The translations under genes were made by a program, and so were the position numbers. A stretch of 64,000 bases of DNA from Shewanella maritima (GTDB taxonomy: Bacteria; Pseudomonadota; Gammaproteobacteria; Enterobacterales; Shewanellaceae): positions 3,845,501 to 3,909,500 of the forward strand of contig NZ_CP036200.1 of the NCBI RefSeq assembly GCF_004295345.1, in the 5' to 3' direction. The notes below the pieces were generated by a model. It worked only from the letters and a program-made list of their open reading frames with translations, searched no databases and was not told where the DNA came from. Of this stretch, positions 1-40,425 are shown piece after piece (the first letter of the stretch is position 1; each line of letters starts with the position of its first letter).

Positions 1-636
1 CATGAACTCGAATCGCGACTTGGACGGGATAGTTTCGATATCTTTTTACGCCGCTATGTTGAGCATTTTGCTTTTACTGCAATTACCACTGAAACCTTTA
101 TGGAATATGCTGAGCAAACATTGCTTATCGACCATGGGGACAAAATTTCTGCCCACGAGCTACATGAATGGGTGTACGGCACAGGTATGCCAGCTTGGTT
201 CAAAGCGCCGACCTCAGACAGTCTGAATAAGGTCGATTTCGCGCTTAGCGAGTTTACATCTGGTATTGATGCTAACAAGTTAGCAATCCAGGATTGGCGA
301 GTCCATCATTGGCAGTACTTTTTAACCCAGTTACCTTTAGTGCTAACAACTGAGCAGCTTGATGATTTAGATACGTGCTTTGCCTTTACACAAAGTAGTA
401 ACAGCGAGATTTTATGTGATTGGTTTAGAGTAGCGATTCGAAATCGTTACCAGAAAGTGATGCAGCGTTTAACAGCTTTCTTAGTCGAAGTCGGCCGGGC
501 TAAGTTTGTTAGACCGTTATACCTTGAGTTACAAATTGCTGGAATGAATTCGCAGGCGTTAGCCATTTACCAGCAAGCTCGAAAAGGCTACCATCCGTCG
601 CTTAGGTTTCAATTAGATAAGTTATTTGAGCAATAG
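1..636 (+). CDS. M1 family aminopeptidase, leukotriene A4 hydrolase type (C-terminal part)
   Basis: The reading frame is open from base 1 to the TAG at 634-636, so the gene begins before the window; about 211 residues are visible. They match the helical C-terminal domain of LTA4-hydrolase-type M1 aminopeptidases: a WVYGTGMPAWF segment, like the WLYAPGLPP segment of those enzymes, and a tail with LYLELQIAGMNSQALAIY followed by YHPSLRFQLDK. Family members are zinc aminopeptidases acting on peptides; the HExxH zinc site lies outside the window, so activity cannot be checked. The downstream gap holds oppositely oriented sRNA genes, so no operon partner is visible. Family assignment is good; substrate unknown. 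Confidence 0.8.
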   Translation, partial: HELESRLGRDSFDIFLRRYVEHFAFTAITTETFMEYAEQTLLIDHGDKISAHELHEWVYGTGMPAWFKAPTSDSLNKVDFALSEFTSGIDANKLAIQDWRVHHWQYFLTQLPLVLTTEQLDDLDTCFAFTQSSNSEILCDWFRVAIRNRYQKVMQRLTAFLVEVGRAKFVRPLYLELQIAGMNSQALAIYQQARKGYHPSLRFQLDKLFEQ

Positions 637-664
637 TTCCAAGATATTCAATTGAAGAGCAGGC

Positions 665-795
665 AAAAAAATTGGCAACCGAATGGGTTGCCAATAAAAA
701 GAATCTTGCAAATTGGAAGGCGGTGATGAGCCGCCAGCCATAAGGGATGATGAAGAAGCGCGTTGGAGTCTGGGGAAACTTGTCAACTTGCTTAC
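665..795 (-). ncRNA. Putative sigma-E-dependent small RNA, MicA-like (copy 1)
   Basis: Seen: a sigma-E-type promoter (GAACTT, 16 nt, TCTGA on the minus strand, 826-800), then about 130 nt ending in a terminator hairpin (672-680 with 686-694) and a 7-T run (671-665). Inside are a CGCGCTTCTTCATCATCCCT stretch (762-743) and a GGCGG/CCGCC stem (735-719). Established knowledge, from memory: enterobacterial MicA is a sigma-E-dependent, Hfq-binding repressor of outer-membrane-protein mRNAs whose 5' part reads ACGCGCAUUUGUUAUCAUCA, then UCCCU; this RNA shares ACGCGC and TCATCATCCCT in the same order. Inference: it represses envelope-protein mRNAs. The start site (about 795) is estimated from the promoter only. 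Confidence 0.72.
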
Positions 796-799
796 TTAT

Positions 800-826
800 T
801 CAGACTAGTGCTTTTCAATAAAGTTC
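800..826 (-). promoter_or_regulatory. Sigma-E-type promoter of sRNA copy 1
   Basis: On the minus strand GAACTT (826-821) is followed after exactly 16 nt by TCTGA (804-800). This matches the RpoE consensus of a GGAACTT -35 box and a TCTGA/TCTAA -10 box at that spacing. The same arrangement recurs before sRNA copy 2. Confidence 0.72.
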
Positions 827-984
827 ATTAGGCTGTGAAAAAAATTAAATATTTTTTCTCTGCTTATATAGGCCGCTTCGAAATTCCCAATATCTCTCTT
901 AAAAGCCCATTAACTACTTTGCTAAATTTAAGTGGTTATTGATGATTGAGTATAACCGGATTTCATTTAAATATGTGCGGCCAT

Positions 985-1085
985 AAAAAAAGGCAACCAA
1001 ATGGTTGCCTATCGATCTACTTGAGATCAAGGGACTGCGCTAGAAGTCCCAGGGAGATGAAGAACAAAGTGATGAACATTGTTAC
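985..1085 (-). ncRNA. Putative sigma-E-dependent small RNA, MicA-like (copy 2)
   Basis: Seen: a sigma-E-type promoter (1116-1090), about 100 nt of transcript, a terminator hairpin AGGCAACC/GGTTGCCT (991-998 with 1003-1010) and a T-run (991-985). It carries TTCTTCATCTCCCT (1064-1051), one base shorter than the equivalent block of copy 1, and a stem GGGACT/AGTCCC (1031-1036 with 1045-1050). That stem sits where copy 1 has GGCGG/CCGCC: same position, different sequence, pairing kept. The conserved block is complementary to a Shine-Dalgarno-ATG-AAG-AA start region, as expected of a seed that blocks ribosome binding. Inference: a paralogue of copy 1 made by tandem duplication. Confidence 0.7.
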
Positions 1086-1089
1086 TTTG

Positions 1090-1116
1090 TTAGAAGGCAT
1101 CTAGGCCAAAAAGTTC
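1090..1116 (-). promoter_or_regulatory. Sigma-E-type promoter of sRNA copy 2
   Basis: Minus-strand GAACTT (1116-1111), 16-nt spacer, TCTAA (1094-1090). The spacing is identical to the promoter at 800-826, and both starts are followed by AAGTAA. Confidence 0.72.
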
Positions 1117-1347: not shown

Positions 1348-1833
1348 CTACTTTAAAAGCTGACTAATTTGACCTCTTAATGCTTCAGGTTTTGTTGTTG
1401 GAGCAAAGCGTTCAATAACTTGTCCCTGACGATCAACCAGAAACTTGGTGAAGTTCCATTTGATTGATTCACTACCAAGCAAGCCTTTTGCTTGGCTTTT
1501 TAAAAACTTGTATAGCGGGACCGCGTTTTCACCGTTAACTTCGACTTTTGATAGTAGTGGGAAGGTGACACCAAAATTCAACTCGCAAAACTCACTAATC
1601 TCAGCTTCGCTCCCCTGTTCTTGAGCGCCAAATTGGTTACATGGGAAGCCTAATATCATTAAACCTTGCTCGTTAAACTCTTGATATAAGGTCTCCAAAG
1701 CCTTGTATTGCGGAGTAAATCCACACTTACTTGCAGTATTGACGATCAGTAAAACCTTATCTTTAAAGTCGGCTAACTCAAGTTGCTCGCCACGAATGTC
1801 TGTTACTGAAAACTGATAAATTGATTGACTCAT
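1348..1833 (-). CDS. btuE: Glutathione peroxidase family protein (BtuE-like)
   Basis: Thiol peroxidase of the GPx fold that reduces hydroperoxides, probably with thioredoxin or glutathione. With the start chosen here the protein has 161 residues, the usual size. The catalytic block VNTASKCGFTPQY holds Cys37 (cysteine, not selenocysteine); the GFPCNQFG and KWNFTKFLV motifs supply the Gln and Trp/Asn of the active site. A longer frame begins at 1863, but an AGGAGG-like Shine-Dalgarno sits 6 nt before the ATG at 1833, which decides the start. There is no signal peptide, so it is cytoplasmic. It stands alone, upstream of the sRNA genes on the same strand. Confidence 0.9.
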   Translation of the reverse strand: MSQSIYQFSVTDIRGEQLELADFKDKVLLIVNTASKCGFTPQYKALETLYQEFNEQGLMILGFPCNQFGAQEQGSEAEISEFCELNFGVTFPLLSKVEVNGENAVPLYKFLKSQAKGLLGSESIKWNFTKFLVDRQGQVIERFAPTTKPEALRGQISQLLK

Positions 1834-2066
1834 TTTTTGACCTCCGAAAAGTAATAACAGCAATATAGTTGATAATTAAGTTGTGCGCAATTTAATTTTG
1901 CAATGTATGGTTGCGAAGTGAAAGTTGAACTGGTGTGAGTGAATTGTTTCTCTATGGTTGAGGGAGGGATGGCAACTTGTAATAAAGGTTAATTCTGCCC
2001 CATCTAGCAAGACTTTTACCTTTGGATTCATATAATTCAGCCAACAACAACTAAAGGGAGTGTGTT

Positions 2067-2618
2067 ATGACGTTCAATGGTGTAAAAACTGTGATTGTTG
2101 CTGCAACGTTTGTGGCGATGCCTGTCACCATGGTACAAGCAGGTGAGTTTGACTTAGGTTTGAGTGAGCACCGTGTATCAGTTGGTTTGAGTAATAGTCT
2201 GAACCAAAATGCCAACTTAGATTTAGGTTACACCTACCATGAAAACAAAGGTCACCTAGCTGAAGTTGCTGCCCATATGGTTCATCAAAGTGGACCTCAC
2301 CACTTCCAAGTCGGGCCTAAGTACGTTCATATGTGGCACAAACATGCCCCTAACGGTAGCGCTGTTGCCGTGGGTGGGGAATATGGCTTAAGTATTAGTA
2401 AGAACCTTTCGCTACATGGTTCGGCCTACTATGCACCATCGGTGTTGTCGTTTTCTAATGTAGATGGTTATGTCGAGTACGGCGCTAAAGTACAGTTCAA
2501 TTTGAATCCAAATATGGGGCTGTATGCAGGTTACCGATATCAGAAGCTTAAGTTTGACCATGCCAGTAGCCAGAGCTTTGAAGATGGTTTCCACATCGGC
2601 GGCGCTATCAAGTTCTAG
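2067..2618 (+). CDS. YfaZ-type outer membrane beta-barrel protein
   Basis: The product has 183 residues: a signal peptide of about 26 (ending near MVQA|GEF), then alternating amphipathic strands such as LDLGYTYHE, VAVGGEYGLSI, MGLYAGYRYQKL, ending in the aromatic-terminated strand HIGGAIKF typical of barrels. It matches the YfaZ family of small outer membrane proteins, whose role is not established. It is monocistronic with a strong terminator after it. The leader AAAGGGAGTGTGTT before the ATG contains AGGGAG, complementary to CTCCCT in sRNA copy 2; this may be a chance overlap with the Shine-Dalgarno. Family call good, function unknown. Confidence 0.75.
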   Translation: MTFNGVKTVIVAATFVAMPVTMVQAGEFDLGLSEHRVSVGLSNSLNQNANLDLGYTYHENKGHLAEVAAHMVHQSGPHHFQVGPKYVHMWHKHAPNGSAVAVGGEYGLSISKNLSLHGSAYYAPSVLSFSNVDGYVEYGAKVQFNLNPNMGLYAGYRYQKLKFDHASSQSFEDGFHIGGAIKF

Positions 2619-14611: not shown

Positions 14612-16174
14612 ATGAATTTAATCAACTATGCTGACTCAGCATTGTCTTTATTGCCGCCTGTTGTTGCGATTGTACTTGCTGTATTTACTCGAAAAGTACT
14701 GCTTTCACTAGGTGTGGGGATAATTATTGGCGCACTGCTACTTACCGACTTTAATCTCGCAAATACCGCCAGCTTTATCGGCGATACCGCCACTGGCCTA
14801 GTTTGGGATGATGGTGCACTTAATGCCTGGAACCTAAACATTCTTGGATTTCTCGTTTTACTTGGCATGATCACTGCGCTTATTAGTGTTAGTGGCAGCT
14901 CACGAGCCTTTGCGGATTGGGCAAAGGAGCGCATTCGCAACAAACGTGATGCTAAGCTGATGACAATGGTGCTTGGTTGTGCGGTATTTATTGATGATTA
15001 TTTCAATAGTCTGGTAGTTGGCTCTATTTCACGCCCAATTACCGACCGCTACCATATCTCACGTGCCAAGTTAGCTTATTTACTTGATTCAACGGCTGCA
15101 CCAGTTTGTGTGATTTCACCTATCTCGAGTTGGGGTGCTTACATCATTGCACTTATTGGCGGTATTCTTACTGCCCACGGTTTTGCTGATACTGGTCACT
15201 TGACCATTTTCATGCAAATGATCCCAATGAACTTCTACGCTATTTTTGCGTTGCTGTTATTACTGTGTGTAGCTATGTTCACTTTAGATGTTGGTCCAAT
15301 GCGCCAGCATGAGCAAAACGCCCAAAAAGGTGAATTGTACGATGAGTCGAAGGGCATGCCGCCAGGGGCGACTGCTGATTTACCTGAAGCGGATACAGGT
15401 AAAATTTCTGGTCTGTTCGTGCCGATTTTAGTACTGATTGCGGCCACTGTATTTTTCATGATTTCAAGCGGCGCAGACGCGTTAGCGGCTGACAATAAAC
15501 CATTTTCAGTATTAGGTGCGTTCGAGAATACTGATGTCGCTCAGTCACTGCTTTATGGTGGGTTAGTTGGCTTTGTGGTGACCTTCATTTTGGCATTTGT
15601 GCAGAAGGTAGCATTCAACATGATTGCCAAAGGCATGTTGATGGGCGCTAAGTCGATGCTGCCAGCTATTTACATCTTACTTTTTGCTTGGTCTATTGCT
15701 GGTGTAATTGGTCAATTAGAAACGGGTAAGTACATGGCAAGCCTTGCTACTGGTAATATCCCGTTTGAATTACTGCCGGCCGTACTATTTTTACTAGCAG
15801 GTTTAACGGCTTTTTCTACCGGTACTAGCTGGGGTACTTTCGGTATTATGTTGCCAATCGCTGCGGATATGGCGATGGGAAGCGACAGTACTATGATGTT
15901 ACCAATGCTCTCAGCTGTGCTTGCTGGTGCTGTATTTGGCGATCATTGCTCACCAATCTCAGACACCACGATTTTGTCATCCACCGGTGCAAGTTGTCAT
16001 CACTTAGACCATGTATGGACTCAGTTGCCGTACGCTGTGATAGTCGCGCTAATCAGTATTGCGGGTTATATCGTGCTTGGCTTTACTTCGTCAGTGCTAT
16101 TTGGCCTAGCGACTGCCAGTGTGTTATTTGTGATTAGTGTATTGGTGCTTAAAGCCAAATCTAATGCTCAGTAG
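14612..16174 (+). CDS. lysW: NhaC-family antiporter, predicted lysine transporter LysW
   Basis: 520 residues, about 11-12 transmembrane helices, of the NhaC Na+/H+ antiporter superfamily. Features include ALISVSGSSRAFADWAKERI, DDYFNSLVVGS, STAAPVCVISPISSWGAYI, and the duplicated FGDHCSPISDTTILSSTGA with TQLPYA. The family name suggests Na+/H+ exchange, but a lysine riboswitch directly upstream points to lysine transport; this class was named LysW in comparative work on the LYS regulon. Import is inferred, since the switch should shut it off when lysine is plentiful. ATG with a weak GAAGAAA ribosome-binding site, fitting translational control. Confidence 0.88.
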   Translation: MNLINYADSALSLLPPVVAIVLAVFTRKVLLSLGVGIIIGALLLTDFNLANTASFIGDTATGLVWDDGALNAWNLNILGFLVLLGMITALISVSGSSRAFADWAKERIRNKRDAKLMTMVLGCAVFIDDYFNSLVVGSISRPITDRYHISRAKLAYLLDSTAAPVCVISPISSWGAYIIALIGGILTAHGFADTGHLTIFMQMIPMNFYAIFALLLLLCVAMFTLDVGPMRQHEQNAQKGELYDESKGMPPGATADLPEADTGKISGLFVPILVLIAATVFFMISSGADALAADNKPFSVLGAFENTDVAQSLLYGGLVGFVVTFILAFVQKVAFNMIAKGMLMGAKSMLPAIYILLFAWSIAGVIGQLETGKYMASLATGNIPFELLPAVLFLLAGLTAFSTGTSWGTFGIMLPIAADMAMGSDSTMMLPMLSAVLAGAVFGDHCSPISDTTILSSTGASCHHLDHVWTQLPYAVIVALISIAGYIVLGFTSSVLFGLATASVLFVISVLVLKAKSNAQ

Positions 16175-39000: not shown

Positions 39001-39162
39001 ATACCAATTGGGATAAATAAGTGATCAGAGGTTACGCAGGTAAAATCGCTTAGAACAAGGCGGAAATTGCAGCTAGCTAGTTGTTCTACCTACAAAATTT
39101 CTAACGAAGTTATAAGTGGTTTTAACCAGTAAGAATGATCAAATACTTGTGCTAATTGGTAT
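39001..39162. mobile_element. MITE-like repeat, copy B
   Basis: 162 bp bounded by ATACCAATTGG and GCTAATTGGTAT. It is an inverted copy of the element at 29597-29772. It abuts the 3' end of the anti-sigma gene; that gene's TAA stop (39164-39162) overlaps the last base of the element, so insertion may have altered its C-terminus. Confidence 0.72.
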
Positions 39163-39869
39163 TAAATGAAGGTTTGCTCAATCTCTTTTTGAACTTGCTT
39201 CAAGTCACTGCCTTGTTCGCCCACAAGTAACATGTATGCGTCGGCAGACTCAAAGCCCATACCTTGATACTTGTCATCAGCAAATTTCTCTTGCAGCTGC
39301 ATGCGATTTTCAACCGGTACTATAAACAAGGTCACTTTATTGCCTTGATTGTCATCCATTACCAAGTGCAATGATTTCACACCTTGAAAGTCACAAAAGG
39401 TGGTATAAAACACTCGCCCTGGTTGGTCGGTAAATTTGGTTTGCTCTAACCCTGAAATGCTTGCCAGCTTAAAGTTAATGTCGTTGAAATTAATATCACG
39501 CTCAGAAACCAATGCCTTTGGCTCATGGTACACATGGGCTATGGCATGATCACCCAGATTTACTGGAGTGAACTTCAACATGCTAAAGCTAAGGCCGACA
39601 ACAAATGCCACAGACGCAGCCATTGCCATTAGGTAGCGAGTACGCTTTTTCGTCTCTTGGTGAGTGTTAAGCTGCTGGCGCAAAATCAGCTTTTCAGCTA
39701 AATCGTCCGGCACATCAATATTAAGCGCAGCATCGAGTTTGGCATCGAGTGCTTTTAGGTCCTGAACTAGCTTGGCGTCGTCAGGGTTGTTATTTAGGTG
39801 CTCGATAAAGTCCTGTGATTGATCATTAGGATCACCATAGGCTTGGCGTCGAAATTGTAGATCATCCAT
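39162..39869 (-). CDS. Membrane-anchored anti-sigma factor (DUF3379)
   Basis: 235 residues: an N-terminal cytoplasmic part (1-77; DDLQFRRQAYGDPNDQS, DDLAEKLILRQQL), one transmembrane helix (about 80-99, YLMAMAASVAFVVGLSFSML) and a periplasmic domain (100-235; AHVYHEPKAL, FYTTFCDFQGVKSLHLVM). It overlaps the ECF sigma gene by 8 bases, the usual arrangement for a sigma/anti-sigma pair, and should hold that sigma factor inactive at the membrane. The stop codon lies in the terminal repeat of a MITE-like element. Trigger unknown. Confidence 0.87.
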   Translation of the reverse strand: MDDLQFRRQAYGDPNDQSQDFIEHLNNNPDDAKLVQDLKALDAKLDAALNIDVPDDLAEKLILRQQLNTHQETKKRTRYLMAMAASVAFVVGLSFSMLKFTPVNLGDHAIAHVYHEPKALVSERDINFNDINFKLASISGLEQTKFTDQPGRVFYTTFCDFQGVKSLHLVMDDNQGNKVTLFIVPVENRMQLQEKFADDKYQGMGFESADAYMLLVGEQGSDLKQVQKEIEQTFI

Positions 39870-40425
39870 TGGCTTTACCTCTTACTTCTGTTGGTTCTAG
39901 CGCATCTTTCAATTGGTTACGGGCTCTGAATAATCGAGTCATCACCGTATTTCGGTTAAGTTCTAACATCTGCGCGATTTCGTCTCCGCTAAAGCCACCA
40001 ATAAGCTGCAATAGCAAAGGTTCACGATATTCAATGTCAAGTTTACCAATTTGCTTACGCAACCAGTATTGCTCCGTTTGTTCCTCGTTAGTCGATGAAA
40101 ATACATCTTCGAGTTGTTCCTGCTCGACATCACTATAGTCAAATTGCTTGCGCTCGAAACGGCGAGCGTTTTCACGGCGCAAAATAGTGATTAACCAGGA
40201 CTTAGCCGCCTTGTCGTCTTTTAAAGAGTCTAAAGCACGCCAAGCCCTAAGAAAGGTTTCTTGAGTGATATCTTCTGCGACCTGTTTATCACCACAAAGC
40301 CAATAAGCGTAGCGGTAAATGTCGCCATGAAGTGCCCTGACAAGGCTATCGTATCGTCGTTGTTTACTTACCATGTCAGATAAGACCGAGGCATCTGTCT
40401 TTTTCTTTCGCAAACTATCGAACAT
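39862..40425 (-). CDS. ECF-type RNA polymerase sigma factor
   Basis: 187 residues with region 2 (YRYAYWLCGDKQVAEDITQETFLRAWRAL, about 32-60) and region 4 (LQLIGGFSGDEIAQMLELNRNTVMTRLFRARNQLKDAL, about 135-175). It lacks regions 1 and 3, as ECF sigmas do. Its gene overlaps the anti-sigma gene by 8 bases. A 13-bp periodic array occupies the upstream region (40567-40696). The regulon cannot be named. Confidence 0.9.
   Translation of the reverse strand: MFDSLRKKKTDASVLSDMVSKQRRYDSLVRALHGDIYRYAYWLCGDKQVAEDITQETFLRAWRALDSLKDDKAAKSWLITILRRENARRFERKQFDYSDVEQEQLEDVFSSTNEEQTEQYWLRKQIGKLDIEYREPLLLQLIGGFSGDEIAQMLELNRNTVMTRLFRARNQLKDALEPTEVRGKANG

Follow-up and report, generated by a model that had tools for sequence, protein, structure and literature searches.

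Small RNAs (sRNAs) of the sigma-E envelope-stress response have been studied in depth in enterobacteria and Vibrio, in which a few of them act jointly. Among these is MicA (Rfam RF00078), whose gene adjoins luxS, and with which the units described here share a sigma-E-type promoter, an unpaired 5' TCATCAT..CCCT block, a Rho-independent terminator and, as predicted for one of them (unit A), outer-membrane protein mRNAs as targets. RybB and MicL of Escherichia coli, together with FoxI and FoxJ of Fusobacterium nucleatum, are presented as the noncoding arm of the sigma-E response, and for E. coli and Salmonella the consulted part of that account names three of them at most (PMC11005410), compared with up to seven related units at one locus in the present case. 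Vibrio cholerae likewise possesses at least two sigma-E sRNAs, VrrA and MicV, directed at outer-membrane proteins (PMC2628432, PMC11005410). By description only, our locus resembles these in having several sigma-E-type sRNAs per genome and predicted outer-membrane protein targets, whereas the consulted parts of both sources do not describe VrrA and MicV as an array. In Bordetella pertussis, CT_532 has been termed a homologue of MicA; compared by description only, it is similar in its predicted pairing near the starts of outer-membrane protein mRNAs but differs in that its expression reportedly seems RpoE-independent (PMC12235514).

A second point of comparison is provided by tandem sibling sRNAs, such as OmrA/OmrB, PrrF1/PrrF2 and AbcR1/AbcR2, and by the csRNAs, which occur in 2-6 copies at distal or tandem positions (PMC4211561). 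Related genes lying side by side and a shared pairing region are common to these systems and to the locus reported here; none of them is described as a sigma-E porin regulator in the consulted part of that source (PMC4211561), and unlike in these siblings, copy number at our locus varies from one to seven between species of a single genus. The open-licence literature, as covered by titles and the first lines of abstracts, returned no description of sigma-E sRNAs of Shewanella or of this locus, and the main text of an sRNA paper on S. piezotolerans WP3, by term search, makes no mention of MicA, rpoE, sigma, tandem, glutathione peroxidase or aminopeptidase (PMC5471319). Here, we analyze a stretch of 64,000 nucleotides of the S. 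maritima chromosome, referred to as the window, together with the corresponding loci of related genomes.

Units of common layout on the minus strand

A sequence-only reading of the window had proposed two tandem, sigma-E-dependent, MicA-like sRNAs close to its left end. Two minus-strand units are indeed located there (A, 1116-985; B, 826-665; Table 1), each of them combining a promoter of the sigma-E type with a TTCTTCATC..CCC block, a stem and a terminator. While the units themselves are real, their number was set too low, as three are found in this genome and up to seven in relatives. The third, unit C, lies on the same strand as A and B, 1.3-1.4 kb left of the window, and shares a UUCAUCAUC..CCC block with B. 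Related units, each with its own promoter (by pattern) and with a shared block, thus make up an arrangement of the tandem sibling type.

Table 1 Features at the left end of the window
Feature	Position	Strand	Basis or detail
M1 aminopeptidase gene, 3' part	1..636	+	Peptidase_M1, Leuk-A4-hydro_C; whole gene L101:6855-8636
Predicted sRNA B	665..795	-	start inferred; first and only B copy at the S. maritima locus
Unit B terminator	665..694	-	hairpin 694-672, six-T run 670-665
Unit B stem GGCGG/CCGCC	735-731 with 723-719	-	sequence
Unit B pairing block TTCTTCATCATCCCT	743..757	-	TCATCAT in 85/86 distinct B units
Unit B sigma-E-type promoter GAACTT-N16-TCTGA	800..826	-	sequence and finder; GAACTT 826-821, TCTGA 804-800
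Predicted sRNA A	985..1085	-	start inferred from promoter
Unit A terminator	985..1009	-	GGCAACC-ATTT-GGTTGCC 1009-992, then seven T
Unit A stem-loop 2	1012..1030	-	helix 2 covariation
Unit A stem-loop 1, loop CTAGCGC	1031..1050	-	GGGACT/AGTCCC 1050-1045 with 1036-1031
Unit A pairing block TTGTTCTTCATCTCCCT	1051..1067	-	3' part predicted unpaired
Unit A sigma-E-type promoter GAACTT-N16-TCTAA	1090..1116	-	sequence; GAACTT 1116-1111, TCTAA 1094-1090
Glutathione peroxidase gene	1348..1863	-	GSHPx; upstream of A, same strand; start codon approximate

A finder requiring promoter, block and terminator in this order was applied to both strands of the window and of 60 stretches of 20 kb (1.264 Mb in all), one of these stretches being picked to adjoin the window and the rest lying elsewhere in the same genome. 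It returned three matches, namely A, B and C. Since single parts were matched far more often in the same 1.264 Mb, with 232 promoters (loose pattern), 311 blocks and 641 intrinsic terminators, the ordered layout of the three units is more than chance. Folding likewise supports the claim of structured RNAs that end in terminators: z-scores amount to -4.4 for A, -4.7 for B and -3.4 for C, each better than 200 of 200 shuffles. By contrast, GGCGG/CCGCC and GGGACT/AGTCCC are poor evidence for one and the same stem with pairing kept, because A and B are no more than 63% alike over the unit; evidence for covariation comes instead from the relatives of A.

A coding role was considered and discarded: 5 of 12 loci contain small ORFs with a plausible start, and by eye no such ORF is common to several clades. 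In two related genomes (L059 and L058), B units have long predicted transcripts (~240 nt) with leaders that repeat TCATC four to six times, looking as if they offered several pairing sites, and some of the B copies contain a short ORF.

Unit A is conserved throughout the genus

Conservation in relatives, as the sequence-only reading would require, is complete within the genus. By BLAST, 52 of the 60 same-genus genomes were seen to contain A and 39 genomes outside the genus gave no match, and a covariance model built from 44 A sequences (R1) recovered it from all of the remaining eight, yielding 60 out of 60. The underlying alignment draws these 44 sequences from the 52 loci after identical copies were dropped, and leaves out four loci with a long terminator loop that were missed by the finder as well as one odd sequence (L086). 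In an order-wide sample of 295 genomes, R1 matches 21 same-genus genomes, and no same-genus genome is found among the non-matches listed, with 248 non-matches outside that list. Six genomes of other genera in this sample match R1 weakly (E 0.002-0.007); read singly, these matches have no sigma-E-type promoter upstream and look like chance. The single examined genome of another genus of the same family lacks an A homologue.

The structure of A is retained to a high degree, with 99.2% of 835 cells paired versus at most 49.9% upon sliding the structure to six other registers. Compensatory changes, affecting both sides with pairing kept, are present in 10 of 19 base pairs and distribute over helix 1 (4/6), helix 2 (3/6) and terminator helix 3 (3/7), and not one of the five covariation measures is attained by any of 500 shuffles. 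The pairing block and the CTAGCGC loop are nearly invariant among relatives. For C, the consensus fold retains the terminator alone. Taken at the level of the genus, the comparative evidence for a locus of predicted sRNAs is strong.

The units fall outside the Rfam MicA model and differ in context

The common layout, with the unpaired 5' block, stem, terminator and sigma-E-type promoter in place, raises the question of whether A and B descend from MicA as true orthologues, having left the luxS neighborhood and diverged since, which we regard as improbable. Applied to three MicA loci (L102-L104), R1 scores 19.2 bits over the full length of one and 14.5 and 12.2 bits at the other two, but this model also gives 18.3 and 17.2 bits at unrelated sites of the window. 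Membership in the MicA family, as initially suggested, is not supported: the Rfam model, used with stricter filters that lose weak matches, has no match in any of the 60 same-genus genomes, but recognizes the E. coli control and, among 38 other genomes of the order, 3. At the gathering score, no Rfam family was detected in the sRNA region or in the loci of 11 relatives, and MicA is absent from the entire window. Between positions 500 and 1250, no MicA match is obtained at E values up to 5, a range that contains weak, chance-like matches to Rfam there, and VrrA/MicV-type families are equally without a match in the sRNA region at this threshold.

The genomic context differs, too. No luxS is present within 13 kb around the locus, in line with the earlier remark that its location is unlike that of MicA. 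A proposed likeness to E. coli MicA, consisting of ACGCGC followed by TCATCATCCCT, does not extend to relatives, ACGCGC being present in 1 of 86 distinct B units and in none of 45 A and 28 C units. The CTAGCGC stem-loop, several copies per locus, and porins instead of OmpA as predicted targets of A further set the locus apart.

Promoters and sigma factor

Sigma-E-type promoters had been proposed for both units, and this holds well beyond them: by pattern, all of 52 loci have such a promoter in front of A, S. maritima has one at each of A, B and C, and a like pattern is located in front of rpoE. The latter, GAACTT-N16-TCTAT, was read by eye, and a stricter scripted pattern did not match it. S. 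maritima harbors one rpoE gene above the family cut-off among six matches to the RpoE model, and one hfq gene; the U-rich terminators of the units would fit binding of Hfq. These six matches with one above the cut-off, as well as a lower-scoring ECF gene within the window (39862-40425) that may have an anti-sigma partner, could be taken to mean that the units are sRNAs under an ECF sigma factor other than RpoE. We consider this quite improbable, given that the GAACTT-N16-TCT pattern is also found upstream of rpoE.

The ECF sigma factor gene itself, encoded on the minus strand, scores 50 bits with the RpoE model, below the cut-off, and overlaps a gene at 39162-39869 that, by eye, possibly encodes a membrane anti-sigma partner.

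Gene neighborhood

The locus is headed by a gene that we take to be rdgC-like, followed by genes for a porin, PhoB-like, PhoR-like and PstS-like proteins, unit C, the M1 aminopeptidase gene, B, A, and genes for glutathione peroxidase and a YfaZ-type protein; a patatin-like gene is also part of the 13-kb surroundings. The aminopeptidase gene is convergent with B and has C on its far side, beyond the window. The porin gene is located at most ~11 kb from A in S. maritima, and such proximity is also found in 11 of 16 porin-searched relatives.

In 50 of 52 loci, the glutathione peroxidase gene lies upstream of A on the same strand, an arrangement in which A might mainly derive from the 3' end of the peroxidase transcript and act as the terminator region of the latter. 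A promoter of its own in front of A in 52 of 52 loci and the conserved pairing block argue against this, as do B and C, which have no such preceding gene, and we judge this origin very improbable.

At some distance, the window contains a lysine riboswitch (RF00168, 14335-14534, plus strand, 109 bits), which ends ~80 bases before a transporter-like ORF (14612-16174, 520 aa).

Copy number varies between species

As assigning units to B or C by terminator type is unreliable for some of them, units were counted by position relative to the aminopeptidase gene. This gene is included in the fetched stretch of 31 of 52 loci, which form the basis of all counts, the other 21 reaching a contig end or having no aminopeptidase gene found in reach. 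Between A and the aminopeptidase gene, B-type units number zero in 2 loci, one in 12, two in 5, three in 4, four in 5, five in 1 and six in 2 (n = 31), and beyond the gene there are no units in 7 loci, one in 23 and three in 1 (n = 31). The maximum at one locus is seven units, reached in two genomes.

Of eight fully compared loci, five contain B copies that share 93-100% across the entire unit, apart from one outlying first copy, about 60-64% alike, in each of two of these five. In two further loci, copies are 64-98% alike, and the eighth, that of S. maritima, contains a single B. Comparison of A with other units of the same genome yields about 39-63%. The high likeness among B copies suggests recent tandem duplication or homogenization in some species. 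A repeat or mobile element devoid of a regulatory role, which near-identical B copies of variable number in some genomes might also bring to mind, is scarcely credible in view of the single locus and orientation, the retained promoter, block and terminator, and an A unit with covarying stems in 60 of 60 genomes.

In one draft genome (G009, L099), three B/C-type units are positioned on a different contig from A, reflecting either a second locus or a split in the assembly.

The block of unit A is complementary to porin start regions in relatives

The pairing block had been read as the complement of a Shine-Dalgarno sequence plus an ATG-AAG-AA start, and this is supported, with ATG-AA(A/G)-AA as the start. 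The further notion that it is aimed at mRNAs of proteins starting Met-Lys-Lys holds for the complementarity to start regions but not for such genes at large; general porins of relatives stand out instead, with 25 background genes starting MKK or MNK averaging -11.5 kcal/mol compared with -16.6 kcal/mol for 30 porins. With the genus consensus block of A (TTTTTCATGTTCATCATTCTCCCT) as query and 988 genes of S. maritima as background, the start regions of 30 porins taken from 16 relatives were ranked; 19 of them lie in the best 5% of the background, and so do 12 of 20 further, hand-picked porins (7/11 near the locus, 5/9 others). Combined, 31 of 50 porins, which were taken from 88 matches with the left-out 38 being mostly weaker ones, and which lack independence as samples because they come from a single genus, compare with 26 of 473 non-porin start regions of relatives. 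The latter fraction is about the expected 5%, and at least two of these 26 look like porins missed by the filter. None of 200 shuffled A blocks separates porins from background as well. Pairing is most frequent at -15 to -9, over the Shine-Dalgarno sequence, and at 0 to +7, over the first codons.

The clearest fit is seen in one clade, where a 16-nt word, CATGAAAAAGACATTC, is the complement of the 5' region of A. With one mismatch allowed, it occurs exactly twice in each of six clade genomes (6/6), chosen because their A carries its complement: once in the A gene and once at a porin start codon. The porin site of the match is MKKTFISASVASVLALASFGALAEG, with one genome displaying MKKTLIS and one mismatch. 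The word is missing from four other genomes, and a reversed control word from all ten. For the 5' region of A of G015, one of these six genomes, duplex energies reach -33.5 kcal/mol at five of the six clade porins and -29.6 kcal/mol at the sixth.

Porin complementarity is less pronounced for other queries. Consensus B and the C unit of S. maritima place 7 and 6 of 30 porins, respectively, in the best 5% and are thus much less porin-directed than consensus A. The A block of S. maritima is unusual, with 2 of its 4 porins in the best 5%, compared with 0 of 4 for its B unit. When each species' own A is used, 14 of 33 porins rank in the best 5%, a weak improvement on the A of other species, as 52 of 2000 permutations of species perform as well. 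S. maritima A is not enriched for TonB-dependent (3/30) or OmpA-like (1/10) genes of its genome, with start sites having been set by rule and some TonB starts being plainly wrong. A duplex screen of the 988 genes by energy alone was too noisy to name clear targets. On these results, we consider the case for predicted porin targeting strong for A in relatives, moderate for A of S. maritima and conjectural for B and C.

Discussion

In our estimate, there is a probability of about 0.8 that the envelope-stress regulon of RpoE (sigma-E) includes A, B and C as small trans-acting RNAs, with A as a predicted repressor of porins. The steps that we infer from sequence, namely transcription, RpoE control, Hfq use, repression and a dosage effect, would proceed as follows. 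Release of RpoE would switch on each unit through its individual promoter, with transcription stopping at the terminator of that same unit. In porin mRNAs, A would pair through its 5' region with the Shine-Dalgarno sequence (CUCCCU with AGGGAG) and across the start codon (UUUUUCAU with AUGAAAAA), blocking ribosomes and lowering porin synthesis, probably with the aid of Hfq. B and C would probably repress other envelope mRNAs, putative targets that differ from those of A, and tandem multiplication of B, as seen in many species, would supply more repressor for a given level of RpoE activity.

The locus is best read as a putative copy-number-variable noncoding arm of the sigma-E response including a predicted porin repressor, by analogy a functional counterpart of MicA, RybB and MicL, of VrrA and MicV, and of FoxI and FoxJ. 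A wider proposal, to which we give slightly less than even odds, is that the genus sets the strength of this noncoding arm via copy number: a fixed leader sRNA would serve as an antisense mould of the porin Shine-Dalgarno sequence and first codons and change together with the porin, followed by an array of 0-6 siblings that expands, contracts and is homogenized by recombination.

Array size and the antisense fit to porin starts are the unexpected aspects of this locus. With up to seven units per locus and a natural series of copy numbers between species, it offers a system to address redundancy and dosage in a stress circuit, and the 16-nt antisense match of A to just one porin start in each examined genome of one clade renders the main prediction directly testable in environmental bacteria kept as laboratory strains. 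A further candidate adjoins the glutathione peroxidase gene: a YfaZ-type outer-membrane protein gene (2067-2618, plus strand) carries AAAGGGAG just upstream of its start and may therefore be another target of A.
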